Source of the DNA: Taurinivorans muris
GTDB lineage: Bacteria > Desulfobacterota > Desulfovibrionia > Desulfovibrionales > Desulfovibrionaceae
Direction: 5' to 3'
Length of the DNA stretch: 64,000 bases
Assembly (NCBI RefSeq): GCF_025232395.1
Contig: NZ_CP065938.1
Coordinates: 1,798,001-1,862,000, forward strand
Shown here: piece after piece, positions 2,360 to 58,948 of the stretch
Layout of the letters: every line of letters begins with the position of its first letter
How positions within the stretch are numbered: position 1 is the stretch's first letter
Made by a program: the position numbers and the translations under genes
The notes under the pieces: generated by a model
What the model saw: only the letters and a program-made list of their open reading frames with translations
What the model was told of the DNA's origin: nothing
The model's database searches: none

Positions 2360-2375
2360 TGGCACGGTCCTTGCT
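2360..2375 (+). promoter_or_regulatory. Sigma-54 (RpoN) -24/-12 promoter
   Basis: TGGCACGGTCCTTGCT, preceded by T, matches the sigma-54 consensus YTGGCACGN4TTGCW at every defined position with correct GG-N10-GC spacing. Transcription would begin near 2386. The next gene, uvrA, starts at 2607, behind an intrinsic terminator. Confidence 0.85.
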
Positions 2376-24267: not shown

Positions 24268-24441
24268 AAAATCCTCTCAAAAGGTGATTTTCAACTGTCG
24301 AGCTTGTGATTTTTTTATTTTATCACATTAAAAATTTTTTTATTGCCGTTGTCAGCAACTTATTTTTATTGCTCCCAGCTGATTTAATGTGCTGATTTAA
24401 TGTACGGAAAAAGAATGTGAAAAAGATACGGCGTTTTTCCG

Positions 24442-24473
24442 CTCTGACATGCAAAAAAAATTGCATGTCAGAG
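24442..24473 (-). terminator. Perfect 13-bp hairpin between ferredoxin and transporter genes of module 1
   Basis: CTCTGACATGCAA and TTGCATGTCAGAG enclose AAAAAA. On the minus strand it follows the ferredoxin stop and lacks a clean U-run after the stem, so it may attenuate readthrough or stabilise the upstream mRNA. Confidence 0.65.
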
Positions 24474-24525
24474 TGTTGTTATGGGTTAACGTGCCGGATA
24501 TGTATCGGCGTTTTGTTTGCAGGAT

Positions 24526-24723
24526 TCAAACTCTTGTGTAAAGAGGAAATTCAAAGCTGATTGCTTCGTGTTCGCAGGCGATACGGCAGCAGCCGCAGTG
24601 CCAGCATTCGTTCGGAAAACGCACTTCCGGTTTTTTTTCACCCATTTCAAGCAAATATCCTGGGCAGCGTGTCACACATTTACGGCATTTTTTACATTTT
24701 GTTGCGTCAAAAACAGGAGGCAT
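24526..24723 (-). CDS. AprB-like 2x[4Fe-4S] ferredoxin (redox module 1)
   Basis: A 65-residue cytoplasmic ferredoxin with eight cluster cysteines in two sets: CKKCRKCVTRCP (residues 10-21) and CWHCGCCRIACE (residues 40-51). The second block and the following EAISFEFP resemble the cluster region of adenylylsulfate reductase beta subunits, but the long AprB C-terminal tail is missing. It starts MPPVF, as its module 2 relative does. It follows the flavoprotein gene by 50 bases with AAGGAG upstream and probably carries electrons to or from its FAD. Confidence 0.92.
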   Translation of the reverse strand: MPPVFDATKCKKCRKCVTRCPGYLLEMGEKKPEVRFPNECWHCGCCRIACEHEAISFEFPLYTRV

Positions 24724-24773
24724 ATCTTACTCCTTTTAAGGTTATTTTTAATTGCTTATTGATATTTCAAGCC

Positions 24774-26417
24774 TTATTTCGTCCAGTCAAAATGCGGAAC
24801 TCCGCTTTCGTCCAGACTGGTGATCAGGCATTTATTGTATGCAGGGTCGAAGTTCGGATAATCCGTACGGTTATACATCGCCCGTCCTGATTCCTTACGC
24901 TGCAGACAGGCTTGAATGTAAATGCGTACAAGTTTAAAGAGTTCCAAACTTTCGCGTATTCTCATGAGTTCGCGCAGCGTTGCCGCTTCAAGCCGGGGAA
25001 TGTATTCCTCAATGGTTTGCATGCTCTTTAATGCTTGCAGCATGCCTTTTTCCGTTCTGTTGAAGCCGACATAATAATCCATGACTTGGCGGATGGCATC
25101 TTCAAATTCCGTGTATGTGATTGCATTTTCAGATTTTGTTTCTTTGAAATGCGTGAAAATTTCATCGTGCATTTTTTCAAAATCTTTTTCCTGTAAGTTT
25201 GGCATATCAACGGTTTTCGCGCGTTTTGCGGCATGTTCGCCAGCTGTCCAGCCTATGCCCATGCAGCAGGAAAATGTTGCCAAAAGACTTGCGGCATAAA
25301 GGTTTTTAATAGGGGTTTCCTGTTCGTCGTCGCATTTGATGATACCGCCGATCATGCGTTCCCCTATTTCGACCTCAAGCGGTTCTTTGGTGAAATCGAT
25401 ATTTCTTGCGCGGCAATAATCCAAATAGGTTTCCTTATCGCCGGGCATAAGGTCGTATTGGAGATGCCTTGCGTCTTCTTCGCTGAAATGGCGCATATCC
25501 ATATAGAACGGAGGCCCGCTTCCTTCAAGCGCTTCCTGGAATGTGCCCATGATTTGGTCGCGGCGGCGGCAGTTTTCCCAATTGGGATCGTATTTGCCCA
25601 TAAAGCGTTCGCCTTTGGCGTTCAATTCGTGACCGCCCATATTGTTGATGCCGTTCATGCCGGGAGCTCCGTATCCTTTAGGCAGCAGTGTGCCCTTATC
25701 GGCAATATCGAGATTTAAAACGGCAGCGCCAGCTTCCAAAGGCAATATGATCTGACTGCCTGTGACATAGGGGGAATACCAGCAGTTGAAAGGTTTGCGT
25801 GTTGAATTTGTGGATACCCGCTGGGCTGACAAGCCGAAAGCGATAACAGCTGTTTTGCAGCGGACAGTGACGAAGTCGCCTTTCAAAACATCAAAACCGA
25901 CACAGCCGGCAATGCGGTCTCCGTCTTTTAACAGTTTTGTGACAAAGAAATTGTTCACAACGCGGATACCAAGATTTTTGATGTATTTTGCGATTTTTGA
26001 TTTTACGGTATACCCTTTGTTGATATGTATCCACCATGGTCCGGGCTGCCCGAAACCTGCGGAACGGACATAGGTTCCGTCCGGATTGCGCAAAAGTTCT
26101 ATGCCGGATTCTTCAAGAACTTCCAAGCAAGGACGCATGGCTTTGTAAAAATTATAGGCTATGGTGTCGGTTATGCCGGAAGTCGGCGTAACGTAATATT
26201 TGCGCATGTCTTCAAACGTATCGTGTTCCGCTTCGTTGAGCACAGCCATGAAGTGGTCGTTTCCCCCGCCGATATTGCCGGAACTTTCAAGGACGCCTTT
26301 ATCGACAAGCAAAACATCGACGCCTTCTTTCTTTGCGGCGATGGCGGCACCGCAGCCTGAAATTCCGGAACCGAGGATAAGCACGTCGGTTTCATATGAT
26401 TTTGTTGTGAAACTCAT
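24774..26417 (-). CDS. AprA-like FAD-dependent oxidoreductase (redox module 1)
   Basis: A 547-residue soluble flavoprotein of the fumarate reductase / adenylylsulfate reductase alpha superfamily. The dinucleotide fold is LILGSGISGCGAA near residue 15, followed by SSGNIGGGNDHFMAVL; GGNDHF is shared with the two paralogues in this window. Further shared blocks are GAPGMNGINNMGGHELNA and PPFYMDMRHF. The C-terminal family motif is RKESGRAMYNRTDYP. There is no signal peptide and no membrane or haem partner. ATG 26417 has AGGAGG five bases upstream. It is driven by the sigma-54-like promoter at 26481-26496 and is very similar to the module 2 protein. Substrate unknown. Confidence 0.88.
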   Translation of the reverse strand: MSFTTKSYETDVLILGSGISGCGAAIAAKKEGVDVLLVDKGVLESSGNIGGGNDHFMAVLNEAEHDTFEDMRKYYVTPTSGITDTIAYNFYKAMRPCLEVLEESGIELLRNPDGTYVRSAGFGQPGPWWIHINKGYTVKSKIAKYIKNLGIRVVNNFFVTKLLKDGDRIAGCVGFDVLKGDFVTVRCKTAVIAFGLSAQRVSTNSTRKPFNCWYSPYVTGSQIILPLEAGAAVLNLDIADKGTLLPKGYGAPGMNGINNMGGHELNAKGERFMGKYDPNWENCRRRDQIMGTFQEALEGSGPPFYMDMRHFSEEDARHLQYDLMPGDKETYLDYCRARNIDFTKEPLEVEIGERMIGGIIKCDDEQETPIKNLYAASLLATFSCCMGIGWTAGEHAAKRAKTVDMPNLQEKDFEKMHDEIFTHFKETKSENAITYTEFEDAIRQVMDYYVGFNRTEKGMLQALKSMQTIEEYIPRLEAATLRELMRIRESLELFKLVRIYIQACLQRKESGRAMYNRTDYPNFDPAYNKCLITSLDESGVPHFDWTK

Positions 26418-26480
26418 CAAAACCTCCTCATAAAGGTTGTTGTTGAAAGAATGAATAAATTTTTTTTATGATTCTGTTTT

Positions 26481-26496
26481 TGCAAGGATAAGACCA
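26481..26496 (-). promoter_or_regulatory. Candidate sigma-54 promoter of module 1
   Basis: On the minus strand this reads TGGTCTTATCCTTGCA: -24 TGG and a perfect -12 TTGCA with GG-N10-GC spacing. The -24 element deviates from TGGCAC in its second half. The start of transcription would be near 26469, about 50 bases before the flavoprotein ATG. Confidence 0.6.
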
Positions 26497-26559
26497 ATTG
26501 TGAAAAATTTTATTATTTTAGTGTGTTGTCTGGGAGTTCAATGGAAATGAGAAAAATAG

Positions 26560-26673
26560 TGACATTCTTGTCAGTATGGTATTTAAATTAAAAATTTATT
26601 AAATCAATATGTTATGAAAGAATGAATATGAAATATGTATTGACAAACTTGTCACTATATGTCAGTATTGACA
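26560..26673. promoter_or_regulatory. Three TGACA/TGTCA palindromes, candidate enhancer sites
   Basis: TGACATTCTTGTCA (26560-26573), TGACAAACTTGTCA (26641-26654) and TGTCAGTATTGACA (26660-26673) are inverted repeats with 4-base spacers. They lie 64-190 bp upstream of the module 1 promoter and just before the divergent activator gene, so they are likely its binding sites. Confidence 0.6.
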
Positions 26674-26715
26674 TTATTTGTTCTAAAAAACATTTAGCCT
26701 TTGCAAGGAAATACT

Positions 26716-28464
26716 ATGTCTTTTGCGGAAAATTTTTTTTACTTCAGCCAGCAGTTTGCCGGTTTTGCGATTAATTTAAAGCATGAAGTCACATGGTGGA
26801 ATAAAGTAAACGAAAAGTTGACGGGCGTTAGTGAAAAAGATGTCTTGCATACCGATAACTATTGGAAAATATTTTATCATACGCAAAAAGTTTTGCCCGT
26901 CGATTTGCTTCTTATGGAAGATACCGACAGGGAAAAAGAATTTCCGAGTTTGAATTTTTTTGGCGACATCTGTTACGGGTTTTTAAAAATTGAAAAAAAT
27001 ATCAATGACAAAAGTTTGTTATGGGTTATCGCAAGCAAGGTTTTTGACGGCAATCGGCAATTAATCGGGGCTATCATGTCTTTTCAGCTTATTTCACTGC
27101 GCCATTTGTATTGGAACAGTCCTTTGCTCGGAGAACTTATCATGCGGTTTCCGCTTCCGATTGCCATTATTTTAAACGGGCATATCACGCTTGCCAACAA
27201 ACTTTATGCCGCCCTGTTGGGCTGTGCTTCCCCCAAGGAGATAGCCGGCAAGCCTGTCGAAACGTTCATTCATTCCCTTGACCGTAAAAAATATCGGGAA
27301 CTAAGCAAAAACAATTATCAGAACATTGTTTCGGAAAAAGAATATGACTGGAAATATTCCGTACAAAATTCAATCCGTTACGTAACAGAAATTCCGACTG
27401 TTTTCAAAAAGGAGGACGATACGCTTTTAGTGAGCACGTTTATTGACAAGACGGAGGAAATACAAAAAGAAAAGCAATTAATGGAAGAAAAAGAAGAACT
27501 GCTTGCGGCAAATAAAAATTTAATCAAATTGCTGCGGGAAAAAGATGGCTTTTTCATCAGCCAATCGCCTAAAATGAAAAATGTCATTGAAAAAGCCCTG
27601 CGTTTGGCAAAAAGTGAAATCAATGTCGTCATTCTTGGAGAAACAGGAACAGGCAAGTCTTTGCTCGCAAAAATCATTCATGAAGCAGGAACGAGAAAAG
27701 ACAAGCCGTTTATTGCCGTCAACTGTGCGGCAATTCCGGAAACGCTCATGGAAAGCGCTTTTTTCGGATATGTGAAAGGGGCGTTTACCAATGCCCATTC
27801 CGCAAGCCGGGGATTTTTGGAAGCCGCCCATGAAGGCACGCTTTTTCTTGATGAAGTTGCGGAACTTTCACCCGCCATGCAGGCGAAACTTCTTCATGCT
27901 GTTGAAAATAAGCTTTTCACTCCCCTTGGGTCGACGGTGCAAAAGGCGTGCGATGTCCGCATCATCAGTGCGACGCATAGGAATTTAAATCAAATGCTTC
28001 AGGAAAAAAAATTGCGTGAGGACTTTTTTTACCGGATTTGCGTGGTTGATTTGTATTTGCCGGCGTTAAGGGAACGGAAAGAAGATATTCCGCTTTTAAT
28101 CGGGTTCTTTTTGAAACGTTTCAGCGGCACGGATACTCCGCCGCGTATTCCCGAACGGGTATTTGCCCAAATGATGGACGCCCCATGGGCAGGAAACATA
28201 CGGGAACTGCAAAATGCGATACTTCGCTTTATTGCCACGGGCGAATTGCAGGAAATGCAGGAAATGCGGCAGGTTTCCATTAAAGAAGAATTTTTTGCAA
28301 AAGAAGATATGCTGTTTGACCTTGAGTTATGCAAAACGGAAACGGAAAGGCGTTGTTTGGAGCATGCCCTGAAGTGTGCGAAAGGAAACAAGAGCCGCGC
28401 GGCGAAATTGATGAATATGAATATCAGAACGTTTCACAGGTATTGCGCGAAACATAATATTTAG
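26716..28464 (+). CDS. PAS-type sigma-54-dependent activator (enhancer-binding protein) for module 1
   Basis: A 582-residue regulator. The N-terminal ~245 residues form two PAS-like sensor regions, a coiled linker follows (250-275), and the AAA+ domain begins at ISQSPKM (about 281). Walker A is GETGTGKS (308-315) and Walker B is LFLDEVAE. The sigma-54 contact loop reads GAFTNA (355-360) instead of GAFTGA. A Fis-type helix-turn-helix is at the C-terminus (KSRAAKLMNMNIRTFHRYC). ATG 26716 has AAGGA upstream. It is divergent from the flavoprotein operon whose -24/-12 promoter it probably activates in response to a small molecule. Confidence 0.9.
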   Translation: MSFAENFFYFSQQFAGFAINLKHEVTWWNKVNEKLTGVSEKDVLHTDNYWKIFYHTQKVLPVDLLLMEDTDREKEFPSLNFFGDICYGFLKIEKNINDKSLLWVIASKVFDGNRQLIGAIMSFQLISLRHLYWNSPLLGELIMRFPLPIAIILNGHITLANKLYAALLGCASPKEIAGKPVETFIHSLDRKKYRELSKNNYQNIVSEKEYDWKYSVQNSIRYVTEIPTVFKKEDDTLLVSTFIDKTEEIQKEKQLMEEKEELLAANKNLIKLLREKDGFFISQSPKMKNVIEKALRLAKSEINVVILGETGTGKSLLAKIIHEAGTRKDKPFIAVNCAAIPETLMESAFFGYVKGAFTNAHSASRGFLEAAHEGTLFLDEVAELSPAMQAKLLHAVENKLFTPLGSTVQKACDVRIISATHRNLNQMLQEKKLREDFFYRICVVDLYLPALRERKEDIPLLIGFFLKRFSGTDTPPRIPERVFAQMMDAPWAGNIRELQNAILRFIATGELQEMQEMRQVSIKEEFFAKEDMLFDLELCKTETERRCLEHALKCAKGNKSRAAKLMNMNIRTFHRYCAKHNI

Positions 28465-28629: not shown

Positions 28630-30135
28630 TCATATGGAAACGATCTGCTGGTTCAGACCGCCGCTCTTTTCGCTTTCTTGATTTTCTCTGCCTTGGTGGT
28701 ATTTCTTTTTGTTATGGTACATGACCTTGTCCGCCAAATCGATGAAAAATTCTTCGTCCGTTTGCTGGCGAGGCTTATTTTGCAAAACATTTTTATCAGG
28801 GCTGACATAGCCTATGCTTACCGTCATAATGCAGGATATGCCGTCAAGCAGATAGGGCTGCTGAAGATAATTCTGTATTCCCTGCAGACGGGTGGGCATG
28901 GAATCATCATCAGGCTTTTTGCAGTAAAATATGGCTAAAAATTCATCGCCGCCGAGCCGTGCGGCAAATTCTTCAGGCAAAAGGCATCGGGATATTCTTT
29001 TTGCAAATTCGATAAGCAGCTTATCGCCGATATGGTGTCCGTACGTATCGTTGATGTGTTTAAAATCGTTGAAGTCCAGCATGCATAGATAGAGTATCGG
29101 CTCATCGTTCCGATAGGCGCTGTTTTGGTGCTTTATGAGCGCTTCCCGAAGAAGTTTGTAAGTCCAGTTTCTGTTTGGCAGATTGGTCAGGCTGTCGGTG
29201 CGGCTTTGCCTTTCAATGATTTTATTTTTTGTTTTTAAAATGATGACAATGGTCAAAAGCAGGGAAAGCAAAATGCAGATAATGCTGTATACGGTGATTT
29301 CAAAAAACAGGTTTTTGCGGTCAAGCCAGCCGGATTTCGGGGAAATGTCAAGATACCATGTTGCGTTTTGAATTGGAATTTCAAAGGTCTCGGTATTTTT
29401 GTTGAGTTGGGTTTCAGAAGAAATAATGGTTTCCTTTTTGCCTGTTGACGGGGAAAAACGCCATAAATTCCAAGAAAATCCGGCAAGTGACAATTCATCG
29501 TATTTCAGCCGTTCCAGAATTTTGGGAAAATCATAGGTTATAAGGACGAAGCCCCAAAAATATTCATTGTCTGTAAGGTGTTCGGTATTGGGTATGGTTT
29601 CGGCATTTGTTTTGGGCAGAAATACCGCCTGCCTGAACGCAAGTCCCGTTCCGCCCTGCACGAGTTTGAACGGTCCGGAAATGGTGACTTTCCTTGTTGT
29701 AATGGCAAGCCGGGCTTCCTCTTTGCGGGTTTTTGAAAGCAATAAATTGTGTCCCATGGCGTTTTTATTCCGCTCATAGGGATAAACATGGCTGACAATG
29801 CCGTTTTTCGCCAAGTTGATATTGAGGGTTTCAGGAATGATTTGTATCAAATGCTCCGCAATTTCTTCGTATAAATCCGTTTTTCCGTTTTGCCACGTGA
29901 TCACGCGGGAGAGTATGTGCAGGCTCTGGGCGAAATTTTCAAAGGTGAGCTTTGTTTTTTGGGAAAAATAATTGCCGTAGATTTTCACGCGTTCCAGTTT
30001 TACGCGGTATTCTTGCTTGCTCGAATAACAAAGGAAACAGCCTGCAATAAAAAGCGTTGCAAGAAGGGAAGCCATAAAGACATACGCGGGTTTGAGCCGT
30101 TTTCTTTTTCTTCTGTCATAGGCAAAATTACTCAT
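28630..30135 (-). CDS. Membrane CHASE-GGDEF diguanylate cyclase
   Basis: A 501-residue protein. A transmembrane helix near residues 18-40 is followed by a periplasmic CHASE domain (about 50-260, containing FKLVQGGTGLAFRQAVFL), a second helix near 280-300, and a cytoplasmic GGDEF domain with an intact GGDEF site (ARLGGDEF). The position of the inhibitory I-site reads LPEE instead of RxxD, so product feedback is probably lost. CHASE domains sense small organic ligands outside the cytoplasm. ATG 30135 has AGAGGATG upstream; the longer TTG start is less likely. No neighbour is cotranscribed. Confidence 0.9.
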   Translation of the reverse strand: MSNFAYDRRKRKRLKPAYVFMASLLATLFIAGCFLCYSSKQEYRVKLERVKIYGNYFSQKTKLTFENFAQSLHILSRVITWQNGKTDLYEEIAEHLIQIIPETLNINLAKNGIVSHVYPYERNKNAMGHNLLLSKTRKEEARLAITTRKVTISGPFKLVQGGTGLAFRQAVFLPKTNAETIPNTEHLTDNEYFWGFVLITYDFPKILERLKYDELSLAGFSWNLWRFSPSTGKKETIISSETQLNKNTETFEIPIQNATWYLDISPKSGWLDRKNLFFEITVYSIICILLSLLLTIVIILKTKNKIIERQSRTDSLTNLPNRNWTYKLLREALIKHQNSAYRNDEPILYLCMLDFNDFKHINDTYGHHIGDKLLIEFAKRISRCLLPEEFAARLGGDEFLAIFYCKKPDDDSMPTRLQGIQNYLQQPYLLDGISCIMTVSIGYVSPDKNVLQNKPRQQTDEEFFIDLADKVMYHNKKKYHQGRENQESEKSGGLNQQIVSI

Positions 30136-30350
30136 GATATCATCCTCTTGCTCCAAGCGTTTGTGTATCTTTAATAGGAAAGCGTGTCAAATCGTATTTC
30201 CGGGTTTTGCGCTCGCCGCAAAAACATGAAATATCCGTTTTGGCAGTATTAGGCAAGAAAAAGCAAAAAACAGCTCTTTTTCCTGTTTGGGGTTTTGCTA
30301 CAATGGCAACAACGTGGAATAACTCGTATGAAAGACAAGAGGAGATTTTT

Positions 30351-32182: not shown

Positions 32183-33838
32183 TCATAAAAGCCGTATGTC
32201 TTCCCATGTGAGGTTCAAGCCTTTTAAATATTTGTTCAGCCTTGCTGTATCGTCATTGCTTTTTTTCTTTTGTCTGGAAGCGGAAAAAAGTTTCCGTCCC
32301 GCTTCGGAGCGGGTTTTCGCGTTTCTGCAAACGCTGAGAACTTCCTCAAGCTGAACTGCGTCAAATAAATCCCGCTGGTTTGCATGGACGGTTTTTTGCA
32401 TGGCTGCCAATTTGTTTTGCAGGGGAAAGCGTTCGGTTTTTTCCGCCGTTTGAAAAGCTGCCGCGGCGTGTTGAAAAGGCGGTGTCCTCTTACTCCAGTT
32501 CTTTTTGAGCAATTCTATTTCCTGCAAAACAATTTCAAGGGTAATTGAGCCATACGAGGAATAAGTCACCATGCGTTCCATGCTTGCCGTGAGGGAGCGG
32601 AAATTGTCCGTCCACAGCGCTTCTTCGCTTGTGGCAAAATCAAGATAGGCTTTCTTGGCTTCCGGGGTGAAATCCGCAAGCAATCCCTTTTCTTTGCGCA
32701 AGCGCCGTATTTCATATTCAATATTGGGCTCTATGTCTTCCAAACGTTCCGTCAGGCTTGGCAAATGAAATTCCCATAAGTTGATACGGGCGTAAAGGTC
32801 TTGGCGGAATAAGCCTTGAGAGATGTTTTCCGGGAGAATTTTGTTGGTTGCGCAAATCAGCTGGAAATCACTTCGTATTTCTTGGTCCGCGCCCATGGGC
32901 AAATAGCTTTTTTCTTCAATGGCTTTCAGAAGCTGCGCTTGCAGTTCAAGACTCAATTCGCCTATTTCGTCTAAAAATAAAATTCCGCCGTCCGCTGTTT
33001 TCAATAATCCGTTTCTGTTTGTTGCCGCTCCTGTGAAAGAACCTTTGATGTGCCCGAAAAGGGTGGAATATGCCAAATCGCCGTGCAGGGTCGCACAGTT
33101 TACGGAAACGAAACTTCCTCTGACCGTGCCTATTTTTTTCCGCAGTTCATAAACTTGTTTGGCGAGTTGCGATTTGCCCGAACCGGTCGGTCCTAAAAAT
33201 AAAATAGGGGCTGTGGAGTGGACGGCGATATGCTCGATATTGCTGATAAGTTTGTTGAATTGCGGGTTGTTCGTGGGAATGGAGGATTTGAGCAGCGACT
33301 GCGTATCGTAATATTCCTTTTCGTAGGTGCTGATGTCTGTCAGCCATTTTCCGAAGCTCGCTTCATATATTTCCGGAACATAAAGGGGGGATACCGCATT
33401 CCGGTTTCTTCTGAGGTGCACGATACGGCATGGAAGGTGCCGTATGTTGATAAGCATGGTGATAAGGAAAGAATGGGCGAAAAGATTGCCTTTGGCGAAA
33501 TAGAGATAGTAATTATAATTCGCTGTATCAAAATTGAATTTTGTAAACCATTCGGCAAACACGCTGTAAATATGATTGAAATTTTCCACGTTGAAATCAA
33601 GCGTTGAATTGATTTTGATGAAACGGATTTTCGTATTGTTCAAATGATTTTTCAAATAGTTGAAAAAGAGCGGAATATGCTTGATGTTTCCCGGATTGAT
33701 GAAAAAGAAAATACGCTCGACCGGAAAAGAAGAAATATTTATGAGTTGAATGTATTGCTCCCATTGCGCAAGCATTTCCGAAACTTGCAAAAATCGGTAA
33801 TTGGCAGGGATTGTTGCGAAAATGACATTTTTTTTCAT
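32183..33838 (-). CDS. RtcR-like sigma-54-dependent activator with CARF-type N-terminus
   Basis: A 551-residue enhancer-binding protein. The C-terminal segment CRNAKTRSEAGRKLFSASRQ and the LNKYLKGLNLTWEDIR end closely follow RtcR. The AAA+ domain has Walker A GPTGSGKS (216-223), a GSFTGA loop (266-271) and FLDEIGE. The N-terminal ~180 residues align in order with the CARF sensor of RtcR, but the segment where RtcR carries TTGTH reads AKGNL here. RtcR normally controls rtcBA RNA repair; no rtc gene is in the window. It is divergent from module 2, which has a consensus sigma-54 promoter, so it probably regulates that instead. Confidence 0.87.
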   Translation of the reverse strand: MKKNVIFATIPANYRFLQVSEMLAQWEQYIQLINISSFPVERIFFFINPGNIKHIPLFFNYLKNHLNNTKIRFIKINSTLDFNVENFNHIYSVFAEWFTKFNFDTANYNYYLYFAKGNLFAHSFLITMLINIRHLPCRIVHLRRNRNAVSPLYVPEIYEASFGKWLTDISTYEKEYYDTQSLLKSSIPTNNPQFNKLISNIEHIAVHSTAPILFLGPTGSGKSQLAKQVYELRKKIGTVRGSFVSVNCATLHGDLAYSTLFGHIKGSFTGAATNRNGLLKTADGGILFLDEIGELSLELQAQLLKAIEEKSYLPMGADQEIRSDFQLICATNKILPENISQGLFRQDLYARINLWEFHLPSLTERLEDIEPNIEYEIRRLRKEKGLLADFTPEAKKAYLDFATSEEALWTDNFRSLTASMERMVTYSSYGSITLEIVLQEIELLKKNWSKRTPPFQHAAAAFQTAEKTERFPLQNKLAAMQKTVHANQRDLFDAVQLEEVLSVCRNAKTRSEAGRKLFSASRQKKKSNDDTARLNKYLKGLNLTWEDIRLL

Positions 33839-33937
33839 AGAATATGCTTTCCTTGAAAAATGGGAAGAAATATGACGGGTGATGAAACAAAATCATAAAA
33901 AAATCTGATAAAATCATATTTTTTTATTTATCTCGGA

Positions 33938-34007
33938 TGATATTCTGATATTTGAAAATAGTCAATATTGGTGTCTATATGATATAACATTGTGATATTA
34001 TTGATAT
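33938..34007. promoter_or_regulatory. Five TGATAT repeats, candidate activator sites for module 2
   Basis: TGATAT occurs at 33938, 33946, 33980, 33993 and 34002, within 80 bp upstream of the -24/-12 promoter and in the intergenic region shared with the RtcR-like gene. AT-richness makes chance repeats possible. Confidence 0.35.
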
Positions 34008-34015
34008 GTGATTTT

Positions 34016-34031
34016 TGGTACAATAATTGCT
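34016..34031 (+). promoter_or_regulatory. Sigma-54 (-24/-12) promoter of module 2
   Basis: TGGTACAATAATTGCT fits TGGYAC-N5-TTGCW exactly. The transcript would begin near 34043, 40 bases before the flavoprotein ATG. Confidence 0.85.
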
Positions 34032-34082
34032 TTTCTCTGGATATGGAAAATGAATTGAAAAACCTTATCCAAAGGAGTTTTT

Positions 34083-35747
34083 ATGAATACAATCCAAAAA
34101 TCGTGGGGTACTTTGTATGAAACGGATATGCTCATACTCGGTACCGGCGCTTCCGGTATCGGCGCGGCGCTGAAAGCGGCTGAAAAAGGCTGTGAAGCAT
34201 TGATGATCGGCAAAGGCACTCTTGAAAGTTCCGGTTCGCTCGGCGGCGGCAATGACCATTTCATGGCGGTGCTTGATACGGATGAACCGTATGACGATAA
34301 GGAAGCGTTCATTAATTTTTATATGAAATCCGCATACGGCTATAAAAGGGAACAGCTCGCGCAATGGCATGATGCGTTCAAACCCTGCCTTGCCGTTCTT
34401 GATGAAGTCGGTACTGAATTTAAACCCAAAGAGGGCGGAGGACGTTTCCGTTCCGTCGGTTTCGGGCAGCCCGGGGCATGGTGGCTCCATATTGTGAACG
34501 GACGCACCATTAAACGAAATCTCGCCAAAAAAGTGCGTAAATTGCCCGGTATCCATGTTTTGGATGACATCGTCATCACGAGGCTTTTTGCAAAAGACTG
34601 CCATATTGCCGGCTGCATGGGCTTTAATGTGCTTACGGGCGAAACCGTGGCTGTTTCTTGCAAGGTTGCGGTCAACTGCCTTGGCTGGCATGCGCAGAGA
34701 GCGGGCAACAACTCTACCGGCAATCCGTTTAACTGTTGGTTTACGCCGTTTACGACAGGCAGTTATTTTTCTTTGGCTTATGAAGTCGGAGCGGCGGTTG
34801 TCAATGCGGATATTTCCGGGCGTACCACCATGCTTCCGAAAGGTTGGGGCGCTCCGGGAATGAACGGTATCAACAATATGGGCGGTCATGAGCTTAATGC
34901 TCTCGGCGACCGTTTCATGGGCAAATACGACCCCATGTGGGAAAACGGCAAACGCCGCAACCAAATAATGGGTACGGAGCAGGAACAGCTGGAAGGGTAC
35001 GGTCCTCCGTTCTATATGGATATGCGGCATTTGAATAAAGAAGACGTTCATCATCTGCAATATGTGCTCATGCCTGCGGATAAGGAAACCTATTTGGATT
35101 ACTGCGCCGCCCGCGGCATTGATTTCCATACGACCCCGCTTGAAGTGGAAATCGGCGAAATTGCGCTTTCCGGCATGCTGCTTGCCGATGAACGTATGGA
35201 AACAACCGTGAAAGGGCTTTTCGCCGGCTGCAATTTCACAAGTTTTTCAGGAGCGATGTGCGGCGGATATGTCGCCGCAAACCATGCCGCCGATGATGTG
35301 AAGACCGCGGAGCAGGGCGGACTTGATGACGCCGTTATCACGGCACATAAGGCGAAGGATATGGCTCCGCTTGAAAATGCAAGCACAACCGGCTTGAATT
35401 ATATGGAATTTGAAGGTCCTATCCGTCAGGTTATGGATTATTATGCAGGGTTCAGGCGGAATATGCCCGGTATGGAATTGGCTTTGAAACGCCTTGAATT
35501 GATTTCCGCCTACAAGGATAAGGTCAAAGCGAAAAATCTGCATGATTTGATGCGGCTGCGGGAAGGGTTCGATCTTTTGGAACTGTGCAAAATCCATTTG
35601 GGCGCTTGTTTACAGAGAAAAGAAACCGGCCGCGGAATGTATAAGCTTTCAGACTATCCGAAGCTTGATCCAAGTCTTGATAAGGGATTGGCGGTGCGGA
35701 ATAAAAACGGTTCGCCAAGCTATTTTTGGATTGAAAAGACAGCATAA
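34083..35747 (+). CDS. AprA-like FAD-dependent oxidoreductase (redox module 2)
   Basis: A 554-residue cytoplasmic flavoprotein. The FAD fold is LILGTGASGIGAA, followed by SSGSLGGGNDHFMAVL. The long block GAPGMNGINNMGGHELNA, then PPFYMDMRHL and LMPADKETYLDYC, is nearly identical to module 1; by eye about half of all residues match. The C-terminal motif RKETGRGMYKLSDYP is present. It starts 13 bases before the ferredoxin ATG region and has AAAGGAG upstream. It belongs to the AprA/fumarate reductase superfamily, but the conserved pocket of true AprA is not evident. It is expected to exchange electrons with the adjacent ferredoxin. Substrate unknown. Confidence 0.88.
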   Translation: MNTIQKSWGTLYETDMLILGTGASGIGAALKAAEKGCEALMIGKGTLESSGSLGGGNDHFMAVLDTDEPYDDKEAFINFYMKSAYGYKREQLAQWHDAFKPCLAVLDEVGTEFKPKEGGGRFRSVGFGQPGAWWLHIVNGRTIKRNLAKKVRKLPGIHVLDDIVITRLFAKDCHIAGCMGFNVLTGETVAVSCKVAVNCLGWHAQRAGNNSTGNPFNCWFTPFTTGSYFSLAYEVGAAVVNADISGRTTMLPKGWGAPGMNGINNMGGHELNALGDRFMGKYDPMWENGKRRNQIMGTEQEQLEGYGPPFYMDMRHLNKEDVHHLQYVLMPADKETYLDYCAARGIDFHTTPLEVEIGEIALSGMLLADERMETTVKGLFAGCNFTSFSGAMCGGYVAANHAADDVKTAEQGGLDDAVITAHKAKDMAPLENASTTGLNYMEFEGPIRQVMDYYAGFRRNMPGMELALKRLELISAYKDKVKAKNLHDLMRLREGFDLLELCKIHLGACLQRKETGRGMYKLSDYPKLDPSLDKGLAVRNKNGSPSYFWIEKTA

Positions 35748-36008: not shown

Positions 36009-36096
36009 TTTGAAAAACTTCTTTGTGAATTTTAAAACGCAAAAATTTCACTATCTTGTTTAAAAATTGCTTGAGCGGTTTTCTAACGGAGGTCTT

Positions 36097-37512
36097 ATGT
36101 CGCAAACAAACGCAAAAATGGATTTTCTGAGTGCAAACCAATTATTGGTAAAATGGCTTGTATCGCTTGCCATTCCTACGATTGTTTATTTTATGCTACC
36201 TATTGACGGTAAGACGATGACCCATGAAATGGGCATGTTTTTAGCTATTACCATTTTTATGGTTGTTATTTGGGCTTTCGGTCTGGTCAATGAAATCGCA
36301 ACCGGTATCGTGCTGCCTGTTCTGTATGTGGCTTTGTGCCATGTTCCTGCAAAAGTTATTTATGCGGGCTGGCTTTCTGACGTTCCCAACACTGTTATCG
36401 GCGGTTTTATTTTATGTAAAATTTTGCAGACAACAGGACTGGGGAAACGTATAGGGTTAGGCTGCATGTATGCCATGAAAGGTTCCTTTGTGGGCGTTAT
36501 TTGGGGACTTGCAACAGCTATTTATATTGTTTCTCCCTTTATCCCCTCTGCAAATGGTAAAAGTTTGATTTTCTGCGCCATTGTCATCAGCCTTTGCGAA
36601 GCACTCGATATCAAGAAAAAAAGTACGGAAGCGACGGCGCTGATGATGGCTGCATTTTTGGCTGTAACCAGCTCAAAACTTTGTTATCTGACTGGCGGCG
36701 GGGACTTGGTTATCGGTATGAATTTGGTGAACGGCGTAACTGGCGGAACAGTTACCTGGTTTGAATATGCTTTATGGAACTTAGTACCTGCAACTGTTTA
36801 TACCATTATGAGTGTGGGCATTGTTGTTTTCCTGCTTCCATCAAAAATGGATAAAGAGGCATTAAAACAAGTTCTTGTTTCCCGTTATAATGAACTTGGA
36901 GTCATGTCAAAACAAGAAAAGATTGCAACAGCTTTCTTTATTTTTACTTTGATATTGCTTGTAACGGATAAGTTCCATGGTCTTGCTCCCGGTATGTCCC
37001 TTTGCCTGGTTGCTTGTATCAGCTTCCTGCCAAAAATAGAGCTTATGGACGCAGACAAGATTAAAACCGTGAACTTTGGACCATTGTTCTTCATTATGGG
37101 GTGTATGGCTATTGGCGGTGCAGGCAATTATCTTAAAGTAACGCAATGGATGGCTGACGGTACCTTTGGCTATTTCCATGGACTTGGCGATTTTGGCGCT
37201 GGCTTAGCTGCTTATGTTGTTGGGGTGGTTGGCAACTTTATTTTGACTCCGCTTGCGGCAACAGCTTCTTTCTCGGCACCTCTTGCTGAACTTGGCCTGA
37301 ATATTGGTGTTGAACCAAGAATTGTATATTTCTCCTTTGTCTATGGTTTTGATAATATTATCTTCCCATACGAAACAGCGCCGCTCTTGCTGTTCTACGG
37401 CTTCGGCTATATCCATTTTGCAAAAATGGTGAAAGTACTGGCGGTAAGAATTTTGCTGGTCATGCCCTTCCTGCTTCTGGTCGCCATTCCGTGGTGGAAA
37501 TTCATTTTCTAA
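36097..37512 (+). CDS. Anion permease, SLC13/DASS type (redox module 2)
   Basis: A 471-residue, ~12-helix membrane protein. SANGKSLIFCAIVISLC, TGGGDLVIGMNL and FGFDNIIFPYETAPLLLFYG fit the sodium:dicarboxylate/sulfate symporter group. ATG 36097 has GGAGG six bases upstream; the longer frame from 36067 has no site. It follows the ferredoxin gene by 122 bases, across a hairpin, and ends at a strong terminator. It presumably brings in, or exchanges, the anionic substrate of the module 2 flavoprotein. Confidence 0.87.
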   Translation: MSQTNAKMDFLSANQLLVKWLVSLAIPTIVYFMLPIDGKTMTHEMGMFLAITIFMVVIWAFGLVNEIATGIVLPVLYVALCHVPAKVIYAGWLSDVPNTVIGGFILCKILQTTGLGKRIGLGCMYAMKGSFVGVIWGLATAIYIVSPFIPSANGKSLIFCAIVISLCEALDIKKKSTEATALMMAAFLAVTSSKLCYLTGGGDLVIGMNLVNGVTGGTVTWFEYALWNLVPATVYTIMSVGIVVFLLPSKMDKEALKQVLVSRYNELGVMSKQEKIATAFFIFTLILLVTDKFHGLAPGMSLCLVACISFLPKIELMDADKIKTVNFGPLFFIMGCMAIGGAGNYLKVTQWMADGTFGYFHGLGDFGAGLAAYVVGVVGNFILTPLAATASFSAPLAELGLNIGVEPRIVYFSFVYGFDNIIFPYETAPLLLFYGFGYIHFAKMVKVLAVRILLVMPFLLLVAIPWWKFIF

Positions 37513-37645: not shown

Positions 37646-38590
37646 TTATGCCGGAGCGCAAGATTGATCTGTTTTTATGAGAATTTCTGCCTCTTGTCTG
37701 ATTGTTTCCACAAATTCCGCCATTGGAGTTAACAGCGTGGAATTTTTACAGATGTACATGATGTCATAGCGGAATTCGCAGTCTTCAATGTTCAGAAGAT
37801 GAATATCGCTTTTCATATCCGCCCGCATTTTGACCATTCCTGTATGGGTGCCGACCCAAAATCCGTTGGTGCTGGTGGCTATGTTGTGATTGAGTATGTG
37901 GTTGACCTGCAAAATACGGCGGTCGTAGCCGTTTTCCTTGAGGTAGAAATAAAAGGCGTCCTCTTCCGTATCTTTGCTGGTGATATACGGATATTTTGTC
38001 AGTTCTTCCAGCGTGCAGGTTGTGCCGGCTGCCAGCGGGTGGGTTTTTGGCACTGCCACATTGATACTGTCCGAAGCCAAGTAATGGGTTTTTATGTTAA
38101 TATTTTCAATAGTCGCAGGCAGCAGTATGTTTTTTCCTATGCGGCCGAACTGAAGCAGGGCGAGATCGAATTTACCGGAAATCACTTCAAAAATATTGCT
38201 GGCACTTGTACGAATGTCATTGATTTTTATATTCAGTTCCGGGGTGGAAGCGTTGGTTTTCAGCATGGCACGAGTGGCAATCATATTGCAGAGATAGGAA
38301 GAAACACCAACGGAAATATTTATATTTTGGGGAGTTCCGTTTTTATTCATGTTTGTTATCGCATCAATTTCAGTGCAGATAACTTGAGCATGTTTTAGGA
38401 TTTCTTTCCCTTTTTCCGTAAGGTGGACCCCTATGGGCGAGCGTTTAATAATTTCACAGCCAAGCTCTTCTTCCAGCTTCTTTATGGCTATGCTTAACGA
38501 AGCTTGGGAAATGAACAGCTTGGCTGCGGATTTTGACAGCGATTTGTAAATATCTATATAAACAATAGCCCGCAGTTGTGTAAGATTCAT
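37646..38590 (-). CDS. LysR-family regulator (redox module 3)
   Basis: A 314-residue LTTR. The N-terminal winged helix (SLSKSAAKLFISQASLSIAIKKLEEELG) is typical, followed by a two-lobed periplasmic-binding-like effector domain (TPELNIKINDIRT, SINVAVPKTHPLAAG). It is the last gene of the module 3 operon rather than divergent, the less common arrangement, and lies 61 bases after the transporter across a hairpin. It likely senses the module 3 substrate. Confidence 0.88.
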   Translation of the reverse strand: MNLTQLRAIVYIDIYKSLSKSAAKLFISQASLSIAIKKLEEELGCEIIKRSPIGVHLTEKGKEILKHAQVICTEIDAITNMNKNGTPQNINISVGVSSYLCNMIATRAMLKTNASTPELNIKINDIRTSASNIFEVISGKFDLALLQFGRIGKNILLPATIENINIKTHYLASDSINVAVPKTHPLAAGTTCTLEELTKYPYITSKDTEEDAFYFYLKENGYDRRILQVNHILNHNIATSTNGFWVGTHTGMVKMRADMKSDIHLLNIEDCEFRYDIMYICKNSTLLTPMAEFVETIRQEAEILIKTDQSCAPA

Positions 38591-38606
38591 TGAGGAGCCT
38601 CTTTAA

Positions 38607-38638
38607 CCGGAGACTGTTTTTTTCGTAACAGCCTCCGG
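38607..38638 (-). terminator. Hairpin between transporter and lysR
   Basis: CCGGAG-A-CTGT pairs with ACAG-C-CTCCGG around a ten-base loop. Partial terminator or attenuator; no U-run follows on the minus strand. Confidence 0.45.
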
Positions 38639-38651
38639 TACGGATTGTGGA

Positions 38652-39950
38652 TTATCCAACCCAGTTTCCCAAAATACCTGTGTATAGGCAAAATTCAAGC
38701 CAAATGAGGCTGACAACAGGCAGGAGCAGCAGTTTTTTGAAAAGAACGTCTGCCTCATGCTGATCTTCAAGTCCTGCAAGAGCCATCGCACCGCAGGTTG
38801 AAAACGGAGAAGATCCGGTGTAGAAGCCCCCTACGGAAATCAGCGAGAACAGAATGATGGGTTCAATGCCGGTACTGGCGGCAAGTGGCACAATCAGCAG
38901 GGCAAGCGTGGGAATGACCACGCCCAGCGTGGCTACGAAGAAGCTCATGGTACAGGCAGCCGCCAGCAGGAAATAAGGAGCTGCGGAGCTGGTTATATTT
39001 GTTTGTACCCAAGAGGAGAGGCTGTTGACAAGACCGCCCGAAACTGCGGTACCAATCAGTGTGCCCATGGCGCAAATCATGATTATAATGGAAAACGGCA
39101 CCTTGTCAATGGCGTCTTTTTCTTTGGCTGCTTTAAAAATGCTACATAGTATGATACCGACAGTGCAAGTAACGGTGATGTCGCAAAAGGAAGCGATTTT
39201 TTTAATTACCGCCGAATCCGGCATGAAAACCTTGAGCATGGCAGGAATGACGGTGCAGAGAAAAACCAGACCGACTATCCATAAGGTCTTTTTTTGAACT
39301 TCGGTAAAAGGTTCCGGTTTGTCGATTTCCACCTTTTTCGTTTTGTGGCCGCCTGTGACAAAATAGGTGATGATAAAAAATATGGACATGGTTATCAGGC
39401 AGTTCATAAGCACATTCATGCACATTGCCATACCTTCATTGCGGAAACCGGTATTTTCAGCTACCTGCTGAATGATTATGCCGCCGACGCTGAACGGAAA
39501 TTGTGAGCCGATGGTTGCGCCGCAGCAGATAAGCACCGTGGCAAGCACTCTTGAAATTTGTGATTTTATGCAAATGGTCATTACCAAGGGGGAAAGAAAT
39601 GCGAATGTGGCAGGTGCACCGGCACCGGTTCCCGCAAACATCATGCAGATAAAAAACAGCACAATGGGTAACTGCGTCGGTCTGTTGCGGCTGCTGTAAA
39701 TAATTTTTTCCGCCAGTTTTACGAGGGTGCCGTTGGATATGGCGAAACCGTAAAACGCCGTGACAATGAACAGCATCAAAAAGAGGTAAATCGGCCATAG
39801 CCCGGCAATTTTTTTTATCGGCAGGTCATAGATGAACATGCCGTTGGCAAAAGCGAAGGTCAGGGCGAAGTAACCGATATTGACTTTGAATAGGAAGCCG
39901 AGGACCAAAGCCAGCACAAGGGATATTAAAAAGAGGAGTTCTGCACTCAT
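38652..39950 (-). CDS. Anion permease, ion-transporter superfamily, MatC/DcuC-like (redox module 3)
   Basis: A 432-residue membrane protein with about 11 hydrophobic segments. Blocks such as MFAGTGAGAPATFAFLSPLV, GATIGSQFPFSVGG and GGFYTGSSPFSTCGAMAL show the two inverted repeats with broken helices of the IT superfamily. It differs from the module 1 and 2 transporters and resembles dicarboxylate carriers of the MatC/DcuC type; the exact family is uncertain. It starts 95 bases after the flavoprotein stop on the same strand and probably handles the module 3 substrate or product. Confidence 0.82.
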   Translation of the reverse strand: MSAELLFLISLVLALVLGFLFKVNIGYFALTFAFANGMFIYDLPIKKIAGLWPIYLFLMLFIVTAFYGFAISNGTLVKLAEKIIYSSRNRPTQLPIVLFFICMMFAGTGAGAPATFAFLSPLVMTICIKSQISRVLATVLICCGATIGSQFPFSVGGIIIQQVAENTGFRNEGMAMCMNVLMNCLITMSIFFIITYFVTGGHKTKKVEIDKPEPFTEVQKKTLWIVGLVFLCTVIPAMLKVFMPDSAVIKKIASFCDITVTCTVGIILCSIFKAAKEKDAIDKVPFSIIIMICAMGTLIGTAVSGGLVNSLSSWVQTNITSSAAPYFLLAAACTMSFFVATLGVVIPTLALLIVPLAASTGIEPIILFSLISVGGFYTGSSPFSTCGAMALAGLEDQHEADVLFKKLLLLPVVSLIWLEFCLYTGILGNWVG

Positions 39951-40045
39951 GATCTTACTCCGGATTTAAATAGACTTTTGGGCGAATTTTTGCAGTATCA
40001 CATTAGAGATTTCGACGGTCGGTGGTGCAACCGCCGAAAGCATGG

Positions 40046-41734
40046 TCAGCGTATTCTTTCGCGGAATTTTGTTTGCAATCCCTCTGGGGTAAGGGTGACT
40101 GTCTGGAATTTATTGTTGAGCAAAGGGTTTGTGAATGGGAAATCGCTTCGTTTATGATAGGCGCCCCGGCTTTCCTGTCTGTCCAGAGCTGAAATGGCAC
40201 AGGCTTCCGCTAAATCCAGTAAATCCAACACCTCCAGACAACGCATCAGCTCGTGGGAATTTTCCGCTTTGAGCATTTTTTTTGCATAGCCGCGCAAGTC
40301 ATTGATATATTTTCTGCCTGCTGTGAGCAGGGTTGCCGAACGTATTCTTGTGCCTACATATTCATCCATGATTTTTTGCAAGGTGGAGTTGGCTTCTTTC
40401 CAATGTGCCCCTGCTTCATTTCGCATGAGCTGGCGGTACAAGGCAACTTTTTCCTGAATTTTGCTTTGTAGGTTCAGAACATCGTATTCCGGTACATTTT
40501 TCACATGTTTCGCAGCTGCTCCAGCGGCATAATCGCCGAATACGGCGGCTGACGTAATGTCGCCGCGCACATTGCCCACGGACATGCCGGAAGCGTATAA
40601 ACCGGGAATGGTTGTCATGGAGCTTTCGTCCACATCTATGCCATTCATATAAAACATGTGTTCATATTGACCGAATTCAATCATGCTTTTACGCAAATCA
40701 ATGCCGTATTGGTCGAGGTATTCATTAATGGAGGTGCATCCTTCTGAAACCAGCGCGTTACGCATATGTGCCAGATCATCTTCGCTGATACCCGTGCAGT
40801 TCATGAATACCGGTCCTTTGCCTGAATCCATCATTTTTATGAAACAGTCTTTCCAGACATCGCTTGTCGGGTCCGGAAGTTCGCGGCTTACATGAATGTC
40901 CTTGACAAATGGCCCGACAATTTTGCCGTTGAGATCCGTAAGGGCGCCAATCCAAGTTCCTTTGCCGGAACGGGTGAAATATTTGGGTCCGGCATGCCGG
41001 CTTGGCAGATCCAAATTCACCAGCCGCGCCCCGGCTCGAAGAGCCATGGCTGCACCGCTGCCGGCATTGGCGGGGCAATGGGATGTGTTGAACAGATATG
41101 CCGGATTGTTGCCGGGGTACATGCGCATTGCCTCGCCCACGCAAATCAATCCTGTCTTGGCTTGGAAAATTATAATTCTTGGTTCGTCTTCGCGGATATC
41201 TATGCCGATAGCCCCTGCAAAGTGACCTGCTTCATTGACCAGCACTTCGTTGACCACTATTTTGTTCATGATTTTGGCACCGGCTTTTTGGGCTGCTTTC
41301 GTGAGACAGGCTTTTTGGTTGGAACCGTCATATTTCAGATGATAACGGCGGCGTCCCGGCATGGCATGACCTTCAAAATTCCATGTGCCGGTTGGACGCA
41401 TGTTGATTCCGTAAGATTCCCATTTGTGGATAAGATCGGCTGAACGTTCCAGCATGAGCCTGAAAAGATTGTTGTCTTGATTGCCGCCGACCAGCGTTTC
41501 TTTGACCTCTGCCATAATTTCTTCAAAATTATCACCATGGTATTCGGGAAGGTAACATAAAAAGTGGTCATTGCCGCCACAGCCGTTGCCGGATCGCCGC
41601 GTATCCGCTTTTTCCAGAATGAGGGTATCCAAGCCAAGTTCCGCGGCTGTTATGCCGGCTTGAAGACCGCTTATGCCGCCGCCAATGATAAGGAAATCGG
41701 TTTTTACAATTTGTTCGTCGATGTTAATGTTCAT
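40046..41734 (-). CDS. AprA-like FAD-dependent oxidoreductase (redox module 3)
   Basis: A 562-residue flavoprotein. The FAD fold LIIGGGISGLQAG is followed by RSGNGCGGNDHFLCYL, so the GGNDHF signature is kept. The middle differs from modules 1 and 2 (SGAAMALRAGARLVNLDLPS, KGPVFMNCTGI). GLYASGMSVGNVRGDITSAA is the FAD-binding C-terminal strand, and the end motif is RQESRGAYHKRSDFP, the RxESRG form common in AprA/FrdA. Its start overlaps the ferredoxin stop by 11 bases (41724-41734), and here the ferredoxin comes first. It is more distant from the other two copies and may act on a different substrate. Confidence 0.88.
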   Translation of the reverse strand: MNINIDEQIVKTDFLIIGGGISGLQAGITAAELGLDTLILEKADTRRSGNGCGGNDHFLCYLPEYHGDNFEEIMAEVKETLVGGNQDNNLFRLMLERSADLIHKWESYGINMRPTGTWNFEGHAMPGRRRYHLKYDGSNQKACLTKAAQKAGAKIMNKIVVNEVLVNEAGHFAGAIGIDIREDEPRIIIFQAKTGLICVGEAMRMYPGNNPAYLFNTSHCPANAGSGAAMALRAGARLVNLDLPSRHAGPKYFTRSGKGTWIGALTDLNGKIVGPFVKDIHVSRELPDPTSDVWKDCFIKMMDSGKGPVFMNCTGISEDDLAHMRNALVSEGCTSINEYLDQYGIDLRKSMIEFGQYEHMFYMNGIDVDESSMTTIPGLYASGMSVGNVRGDITSAAVFGDYAAGAAAKHVKNVPEYDVLNLQSKIQEKVALYRQLMRNEAGAHWKEANSTLQKIMDEYVGTRIRSATLLTAGRKYINDLRGYAKKMLKAENSHELMRCLEVLDLLDLAEACAISALDRQESRGAYHKRSDFPFTNPLLNNKFQTVTLTPEGLQTKFRERIR

Positions 41735-42486: not shown

Positions 42487-43638
42487 ATGGCGCGGGGATT
42501 AAATGTATACCAAAGGAGGACAGGCTTGTATCTAACTATTTTTTATTCCACCAGCTTAGTTTTTTTTTGTGCTGAAACGACAAAAAAAGACTTATACCGC
42601 AAAAATGGAAAATTGATTGAAGAAAAAGTCGGCGGGCAATTTAAGGATAATATGACGCCTGCAAAAGCTTCCAGCATACGAGGGCTACGCATTGAAGGGT
42701 CTATCCCTACCAATAATGAAAAAAGGGAACGTATCAGGCAGGAAAAGCTTAAAGAAAAAAGTTCGTATTCTTTTATCCGTTTGTTCAGTCTGTTTGAAGA
42801 ATCAGAGCGTGAAAACAGAAGTCTGAAAGACGACAGAATCCGATTTAGTCTGCATATTGCCCCGCTTATCGGCAAAAAAGCCATTTCGGAACTTACGACA
42901 CAGGATATAGAAAAAATCCGCCGAAAAATGGAAAAAGAGGGGAAATCCCCGCAAACCGTGAAACACGTGCTGACGCTTATTAAGCGGCTTGTCAATTATG
43001 CCTTGAAAAACGGATATATTGAGTCTGTTCCTGCGACCTTGCATTTTGATATGCCCGCTGTTGACAACAAAGTAACCGAAAATCTAACGGCGAAACAGGT
43101 TGCTAAGCTTTTGCAGGTTCTTGACGAGGAAGAAGATATTGTCATGGCATCCCTTATCCGTCTTGCACTGTTTACAGGTATGCGAAGAAGTGCCCTGCTG
43201 AATTTGCAGTGGACAGACCTTGATTTTGAGCGGAACAGTATTATGCTGCGCGGTGATGTGGCAAAAAAGAAAAAGACGGAATATATTCCCATGAACGAAC
43301 AGGCAAAAGCCATTTTGCTTTCTGTGCCGAAAACGACAAGTCCTTATGTTTTTCCGGGCCGTGACGATGATAAGCCAAGGGTTAATATAACTGCCGTGTT
43401 AAAACGGGTAAAGGAAAAAGCAGGGCTTCCCGAAAGTTTTCGTCCTCTGCATGGCTTGCGTCATTCTTTTGCGTCTTGGCTTGCCAATTCGGGACAGGTT
43501 TCCATGTATGAACTGCAAAAGCTTTTGACACATTCAAGCCCGCTTATGACCCAGCGTTATGCCCATTTGCACGATGAGGCATTAAAGCGAGCTTCAAATT
43601 TGACGACTAATCTTTTTACCACAAAAGAAAAGGAATAA
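42487..43638 (+). CDS. Tyrosine recombinase integrase
   Basis: A 383-residue site-specific recombinase. The N-terminal arm-binding region (ARGLNVYQRRTGLYL) and a SAM-like core-binding domain (about 95-185) precede the catalytic domain. Catalytic residues visible are R233 in GMRRS, H322-x2-R325 in LHGLRHS, H349 in LLTHSS and Y358 in MTQRYAH. It should integrate and excise the mobile island. The next gene begins three bases after the stop. No excisionase was recognised. The start ATG 42487 gives the arm-domain MARGL beginning, although its ribosome site is weak. Confidence 0.93.
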   Translation: MARGLNVYQRRTGLYLTIFYSTSLVFFCAETTKKDLYRKNGKLIEEKVGGQFKDNMTPAKASSIRGLRIEGSIPTNNEKRERIRQEKLKEKSSYSFIRLFSLFEESERENRSLKDDRIRFSLHIAPLIGKKAISELTTQDIEKIRRKMEKEGKSPQTVKHVLTLIKRLVNYALKNGYIESVPATLHFDMPAVDNKVTENLTAKQVAKLLQVLDEEEDIVMASLIRLALFTGMRRSALLNLQWTDLDFERNSIMLRGDVAKKKKTEYIPMNEQAKAILLSVPKTTSPYVFPGRDDDKPRVNITAVLKRVKEKAGLPESFRPLHGLRHSFASWLANSGQVSMYELQKLLTHSSPLMTQRYAHLHDEALKRASNLTTNLFTTKEKE

Positions 43639-58871: not shown

Positions 58872-58948
58872 TGGCGTCCTCAAGGGGATTTGAACCCCTG
58901 TTGACGGCGTGAAAGGCCGCTGTCCTGGGCCGGCTAGACGATGAGGAC
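58872..58948 (-). tRNA. tRNA-Glu (anticodon TTC), CCA encoded
   Basis: On the minus strand, acceptor arm GTCCTCA pairs with TGAGGAC. The anticodon loop CTTTCAC has anticodon TTC, the T-loop arm contains GGTTCAAATC, and the terminal GCCA is encoded. All four arms fold. tRNA-Glu genes often serve as integration sites, and the accessory island lies on its 3' side; no duplicated 3' end was found by eye. Confidence 0.95.

Follow-up and report, generated by a model that had tools for sequence, protein, structure and literature searches.

Known CARF domains recognize cyclic oligoadenylate or the ends of RNA, and do so in defence systems and in the repair of RNA. RtcR, described in Salmonella and Escherichia coli, couples such a domain to sigma-54-dependent transcription: its CARF domain keeps the AAA+ domain repressed as long as no signal is perceived; once one is, the protein oligomerizes and remodels the sigma-54 polymerase (PMC7790460, PMC9650030). 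The CARF domain of Salmonella RtcR binds tRNA halves with a 2′,3′-cyclic phosphate, and RtcA is required for induction of the operon (PMC7790460); E. coli RtcR requires RtcAB, and RtcA and RtcB bind its CARF domain (PMC9650030). The CARF-sigma54 combination is likewise used outside rtc by the RtcR-like activators of CoCoNuT and restriction loci, which are defence-linked and predicted to sense RNA ends (PMC4012209, PMC11090510). A 64-kb stretch of the Taurinivorans muris genome (contig NZ_CP065938.1, positions 1,798,001–1,862,000; hereafter the window) encodes another RtcR-like activator, named here the regulator, which has a predicted metabolic target instead: it lies divergent from genes for a flavoprotein (FlavoA), a ferredoxin and a permease. 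The comparisons reported below suggest that the regulator is probably a dedicated local sigma-54 activator of this operon, with a CARF domain that senses a signal other than RtcAB or RNA ends, most likely the organic anion carried by the transporter or a product of that anion.

The regulator resembles RtcR in its whole-length CARF-AAA+-C-terminal architecture and conserved C-terminal region, sigma-54 dependence and divergent gene order also being common to both (PMC7790460, PMC9650030). The NCBIfam model for RtcR (NF038308) aligned to its residues 2–549 with 526 bits. Since the cut-off of this equivalog family is 650 bits, it was not called RtcR, and is, as judged by sequence, a relative of RtcR placed outside the equivalog. 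The RtcR-like character originally proposed for the protein is therefore upheld as full-length homology, but not as membership of RtcR. Pfam searches detected Sigma54_activat (171 bits) and, weakly, the RtcR N-domain (25.9 bits; cut-off 23.1). The AAA+ domain has an intact Walker A motif (GPTGSGKS) and an intact GSFTGA loop, a variant of GAFTGA. The sequence features of a sigma-54 enhancer-binding protein were all found: AAA+ motifs, upstream sites, a -24/-12 promoter and an RpoN gene in the genome. The regulator differs from RtcR in being encoded without rtcBA, in the replacement of the LGT and TTGTHV motifs, and in having a different operator and a flavoprotein/transport target.

The genome is a single contig of 2.17 Mb (99% complete), and statements on it as a whole derive from targeted searches. 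A contig of Desulfovibrio sp. UBA8003 matches the locus at 100% identity, the nearest named relatives being Mailhella metagenome-assembled genomes. Neither RtcB nor RtcA was found in the 2.17 Mb by these searches, which did detect the positive controls, so the RtcAB-dependent route of induction would be unavailable in this genome. A profile of the N-terminal domain of the regulator's clade (A1) was run against 348 genomes of the order and 395 sampled in the phylum. It placed this clade in 15 Desulfovibrionaceae genomes of five genera (137–302 bits; at most 53 bits for canonical RtcRs in the 348 genomes), with no hit in any other genome among the 395. RtcB was absent from 13 of these 15 genomes. 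For comparison, 78 loci of canonical RtcR were inspected: 65 have an RtcB gene within 3.5 kb, and contig ends cut several of the remaining 13, whereas none of the clade loci has one. One genome (G177) contains both kinds, a canonical RtcR (L131) and a clade protein (L113). In an unrooted tree of the AAA+ and C-terminal columns a single branch, with support of 95/82 and recovered in 96% of bootstraps, set the clade off from the rest, and the RtcRs of Desulfovibrionaceae fell among those of other phyla, apart from the clade. A recent local duplication of a Desulfovibrionaceae RtcR was therefore ruled out as the origin of the clade. The regulator is, on these sequence comparisons, not the RNA-repair regulator.

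The pairing of the regulator with its target is conserved. The regulator gene was divergent from FlavoA (67–92% identity) at all 13 readable clade loci, which belong to four genera, and at none of them did it lie beside rtcBA; the association with a redox-transport module predicted for the window thus extends to its relatives. The ferredoxin gene followed FlavoA wherever it was called, and then came the transporter, of the DASS type in the window, L068 and L110 and of the TRAP type at most other loci (at L111 the transporter was not recognized, and at L105 the contig stops inside FlavoA). The transporter is thus exchanged between relatives and the regulator-flavoprotein pairing is kept. The reverse search, in 288 genomes of the family, gave the same picture: all 14 FlavoA proteins of at least 67% identity adjoin the regulator, including a contig-truncated copy in G188, and they are exactly the ones that do. 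In G011, of a fifth genus, remnants of both genes in broken frames are still adjacent (L109, 9262–11386), as if regulator and FlavoA were being lost together. It could be argued that the adjacency is incidental, the regulator acting elsewhere or being a decaying RtcR, since the usual rtcBA targets are missing from the genome. This we find hardly credible: the divergent pairing in four genera and its decayed remnants in the fifth speak against it, as do the conserved CARF columns that the clade has of its own, the intact Walker A and G[SA]FTGA motifs, and the position of the only genomic operator match of at least 12/14 outside open reading frames, which is the one at the regulator locus. An incidental neighbour was rejected on the 13 divergent pairings and the 14 of 14 reverse matches, and the regulator is, as far as gene order can tell, co-inherited with the flavoprotein.

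The N-terminal domain was predicted to have a CARF fold. An AlphaFold2 model of residues 1–189 (predicted local distance difference test, pLDDT, 82.7; 45-row alignment) showed the element order b1-a-b2-a-b3-a-b4-a-b5-b6, a layout also given for CARF in PMC4012209. The best Foldseek matches were Cad1 and Csm6, and the best VIA-align match was VC1899 (Z 12.2, 2.8 Å, 129 residues), the matches listed being CARF and ring-nuclease proteins. The CARF fold that had been proposed is therefore upheld, and of the two sequence-based findings named beforehand as telling against the original prediction, close homologues always adjoining rtcBA and an N-terminal fold other than CARF, neither was made. To compare the domain with that of RtcR, positions at least 90% conserved in the 78 canonical RtcRs were inspected in 12 clade members. 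Of the 47 such positions in CARF, 26 were missing from all 12; the corresponding figures were 4 of 98 for the AAA+ domain and 1 of 21 for the C-terminal region, so the divergence centres on CARF. The changes cluster in the segments after strands 1 and 4, positions that line the CARF pocket (PMC4012209): canonical LGT.LD became TI[PS] after strand 1, and canonical TTGTHVAQIC became xxGNxFxHxF[ML] after strand 4. The altered ligand motifs and the alignment of AKGNL with the TTGTH of RtcR, both anticipated in the original prediction, are borne out here. In the strand-4 region G117, N118, F120, H122 and F124 are invariant in the clade, where canonical RtcR has T115, T116, G117, T118, H119, V120 and Q122; the canonical CARF signature LGTxLD ... 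TTGTHVAQIC was not found in the clade. In the CARF superfamily nucleotide ligands are contacted by a K/R residue after strand 4. The regulator has K116 at this point, its relatives having P, R or S; the K/R residue is mostly missing from canonical RtcR too (PMC4012209). Since 32 CARF columns are at least 90% conserved within the clade itself, constraint on the domain appears to persist, and the clade CARF is, by these patterns, re-specialized rather than decaying; the sequence leaves the identity of the ligand aside.

These changes bear on whether the regulator still senses RNA ends or cyclic oligoadenylate and so makes the redox module respond to damaged RNA or to stress from phages. Its whole-length homology to RtcR, and the binding of tRNA halves by the Salmonella CARF domain mentioned above (PMC7790460), would fit such a role. 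We nevertheless regard it as distinctly improbable: RtcB is absent, as is the RtcA that Salmonella needs for induction, the TTGTH and LGT signatures are gone from all clade members, and the module has no linked gene of nucleic-acid function. Defence genes were likewise not recognized beside the module in the window or at the clade loci, where distant genes were not exhaustively annotated.

The start codons of the regulator and the operon are 244 bp apart. Inspection by eye of the clade intergenic regions yielded a common palindrome, ATCAGAA-N4-TTCTGAT, present in one to three copies spaced 19–21 or 39–40 bp, the last centred 84–113 bp upstream of the -12 element (91 bp at five loci). Palindrome scores of 11–14/14 in the clade regions exceeded those of shuffles of each region (P ≤ 0.03). 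They were also above the 8–11/14 reached upstream of canonical RtcR genes within the family (P = 2e-5). An operator matrix built without the window and without the near-duplicate L104 was used to score every position of the window, and ranked 33892 first (20.6 bits) and 33932 second (16.3 bits), the next position reaching 12.7 bits. The five TGATAT repeats proposed earlier as sites of the regulator (33938, 33946, 33980, 33993 and 34002) did not withstand this comparison: the first two alone overlap a conserved operator, and the conserved predicted operators are the tandem palindromes at 33892–33949, not the repeats. The sigma-54 promoter pattern occurs twice in 64 kb, where 0.11 would be expected, and a -24/-12 match was also present in 10 of the 12 other clade intergenic regions. 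The combination of genome searches, the TGGTACAATAATTGCT promoter and the operon genes agrees with the earlier view of an activator without rtcBA that faces the sigma-54 promoter of a redox/transport module. A wider regulon was considered and rejected, as the nine other genomic matches with up to two mismatches all lie within open reading frames with no sigma-54 site nearby. The second perfect promoter match in the window, TGGCACGGTCCTTGCT, is at 2360–2375 (+).

The nearest solved structure to FlavoA was 8a8o (E 1e-35), the Methanothermococcus phosphoadenosine phosphosulfate (PAPS) reductase. As in that enzyme and in AprAB, a flavin adenine dinucleotide (FAD)-binding alpha subunit is accompanied by a small [4Fe-4S] partner. 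Unlike these, the FlavoA operon contains an organic-anion transporter, and the FEMRFI.ALRVKD stretch of 8a8o is replaced by NADISGRTTMLPKGWGAPG. For these two reasons FlavoA is probably not a PAPS or APS reductase, a role judged unlikely from the alignment around that stretch, and the flavoprotein-ferredoxin pair more likely reduces or dehydrogenates an organic acid. Reading the substrate from the nearest transporter structures was abandoned: the TRAP receptors matched a broad set of solved structures (5i5p, 7nr2, SiaP and others), and the permease matched none.

Related modules elsewhere carry a different sensor. The closest FlavoA without a clade regulator (61% identity, G277) adjoins a PAS-type sigma-54 activator (L194), as does the flavoprotein designated FlavoB in the window and at L195, L196 and L201. 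The PAS-type activators in the window (26701–28464), L194 and L195 occupy the same slot, beside an FAD flavoprotein and TRAP or CitM-type transport, and have a PAS sensor where the regulator has CARF. The CARF regulator therefore appears to fill a slot held elsewhere by a PAS sensor, and the simplest reading is accordingly that it responds to a ligand from the pathway, either the anion or what is made from it.

By analogy with RtcR biochemistry, the CARF domain would hold the AAA+ domain inactive when the signal is absent; on its arrival the regulator would oligomerize on the palindromes, and the G[SA]FTGA loop would touch the sigma-54 polymerase so that the promoter is opened. The signal would be a small molecule tied to the pathway and lodged in the CARF pocket; the most plausible candidate is the organic anion that the cell takes up, or a product of it. 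The DNA site, promoter and target-operon steps are supported by comparison of loci, while CARF repression and the signal are what we infer. The main rival to a ligand of this kind is control of CARF by protein contact in trans, through the flavoprotein, the ferredoxin or another protein, the signal being the status of the pathway. The binding of RtcA and RtcB to the CARF domain of E. coli RtcR is a precedent (PMC9650030), and retention of the regulator with the flavoprotein while the transporter is swapped would be expected if regulator and enzyme must match. A shared substrate, however, accounts for co-inheritance equally well, it is the pocket motifs after strands 1 and 4 that have been rewritten, suggesting a changed ligand, and in sister modules the PAS regulators presumably need no partner; we consider protein contact unlikely.

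Several points weigh against the main reading, a local activator with a CARF domain that senses a pathway molecule. To our knowledge, CARF domains with characterized ligands bind nucleotides or RNA ends, and a metabolite ligand would be unprecedented. The two operators in the window are weaker than those in relatives, and a loosened palindrome pattern is not rare for this base composition (3 found, 2.4 expected). The alignment given to AlphaFold2 consisted mostly of canonical RtcR. The stronger proposal, that CARF came to sense a metabolite other than a nucleotide (an organic anion or the product of its reduction), replaced a PAS sensor over an anaerobic flavoprotein-reductase operon and is the first such case outside nucleic-acid or nucleotide signalling, we hold to be evenly balanced.

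The case of these few gut-type relatives of Desulfovibrio suggests that the CARF fold can serve ordinary metabolism. A conserved clade with both pocket motifs rewritten and governing a metabolic operon would show CARF to be a general ligand sensor, with candidate ligands bounded by those of the DASS/TRAP transporter and the flavoprotein. Natural paralogue pairs, such as the two kinds in G177, may be useful for mapping the determinants of CARF specificity, and genes of this clade should not be annotated as RNA-repair regulators. A literature search found no paper on RtcR-like activators with metabolic modules, which does not prove absence.

Table 1. Features of the regulator locus (window coordinates)
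Feature	Position	Strand	Basis
RtcR-like sigma-54 activator (CARF, AAA+, C-terminal DNA-binding region), 551 residues	32183–33838	-	NCBIfam, Pfam, motifs
CARF domain, residues 1–165	33344–33838	-	AlphaFold2 and fold search
Re-specialized strand-4 motif, residues 115–123, AKGNLFAHS (canonical RtcR TTGTHVAQ)	33470–33496	-	Clade versus canonical alignment
Predicted upstream operator 1, ATCATAAAAAAATCTGAT, 12/14 to palindrome	33892–33909		Clade comparison, matrix 20.6 bits
Predicted upstream operator 2, CTCGGATGATATTCTGAT, 11/14 to palindrome	33932–33949		Clade comparison, matrix 16.3 bits
Predicted sigma-54 (-24/-12) promoter, TGGTACAATAATTGCT	34016–34031	+	Pattern count, counterparts in relatives
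FlavoA, FAD_binding_2 flavoprotein of the AprA / PAPS-reductase-alpha / fumarate-reductase kind	34083–35747	+	Family searches, structure match
2[4Fe-4S] ferredoxin, 72 residues	35756–35974	+	Pfam Fer4
DASS-type permease (Na_sulph_symp); TRAP transporter instead in most relatives	36067–37512	+	Family searches, clade loci

Within 20 kb the window holds three related flavoprotein modules with three types of regulator. In the sister module (22801–28464), the PAS-type activator (26701–28464) is divergent from a related flavoprotein (24774–26420), and a CitM-type permease is encoded at 22801–24267. A CHASE-GGDEF diguanylate cyclase gene (28630–30156, -) separates it from the module of the regulator. 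The third module (37646–41734) comprises a LysR regulator, a MatC-type permease and a flavoprotein; the permease shares 88.6% identity with one from a different genus (L197). A phage-type integrase (42487–43638) and then a DUF6371 protein (44698–45843) follow, with a tRNA gene (58875–58948) 16 kb on, and possibly an integrated element adjoins the three modules. RNA family searches across the window detected a single tRNA only.

Other activators with CARF-like sensors were also seen. Two more strongly diverged RtcR-like activators, with CARF motifs altered again, are encoded in G134 (L114, 7415–9028 and 9487–11082), one beside an amidohydrolase/thioredoxin cluster and the other facing TctC/TctA and a sulfatase; these neighbourhoods suggest that RtcR-like activators may have been recruited to metabolism more than once. 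Loci L115, L116, L118 and L120 encode other sigma-54 activators, whose N-terminus is CARF-like with SGSP/PGTP motifs and which the tree places at a distance from the RtcR group.

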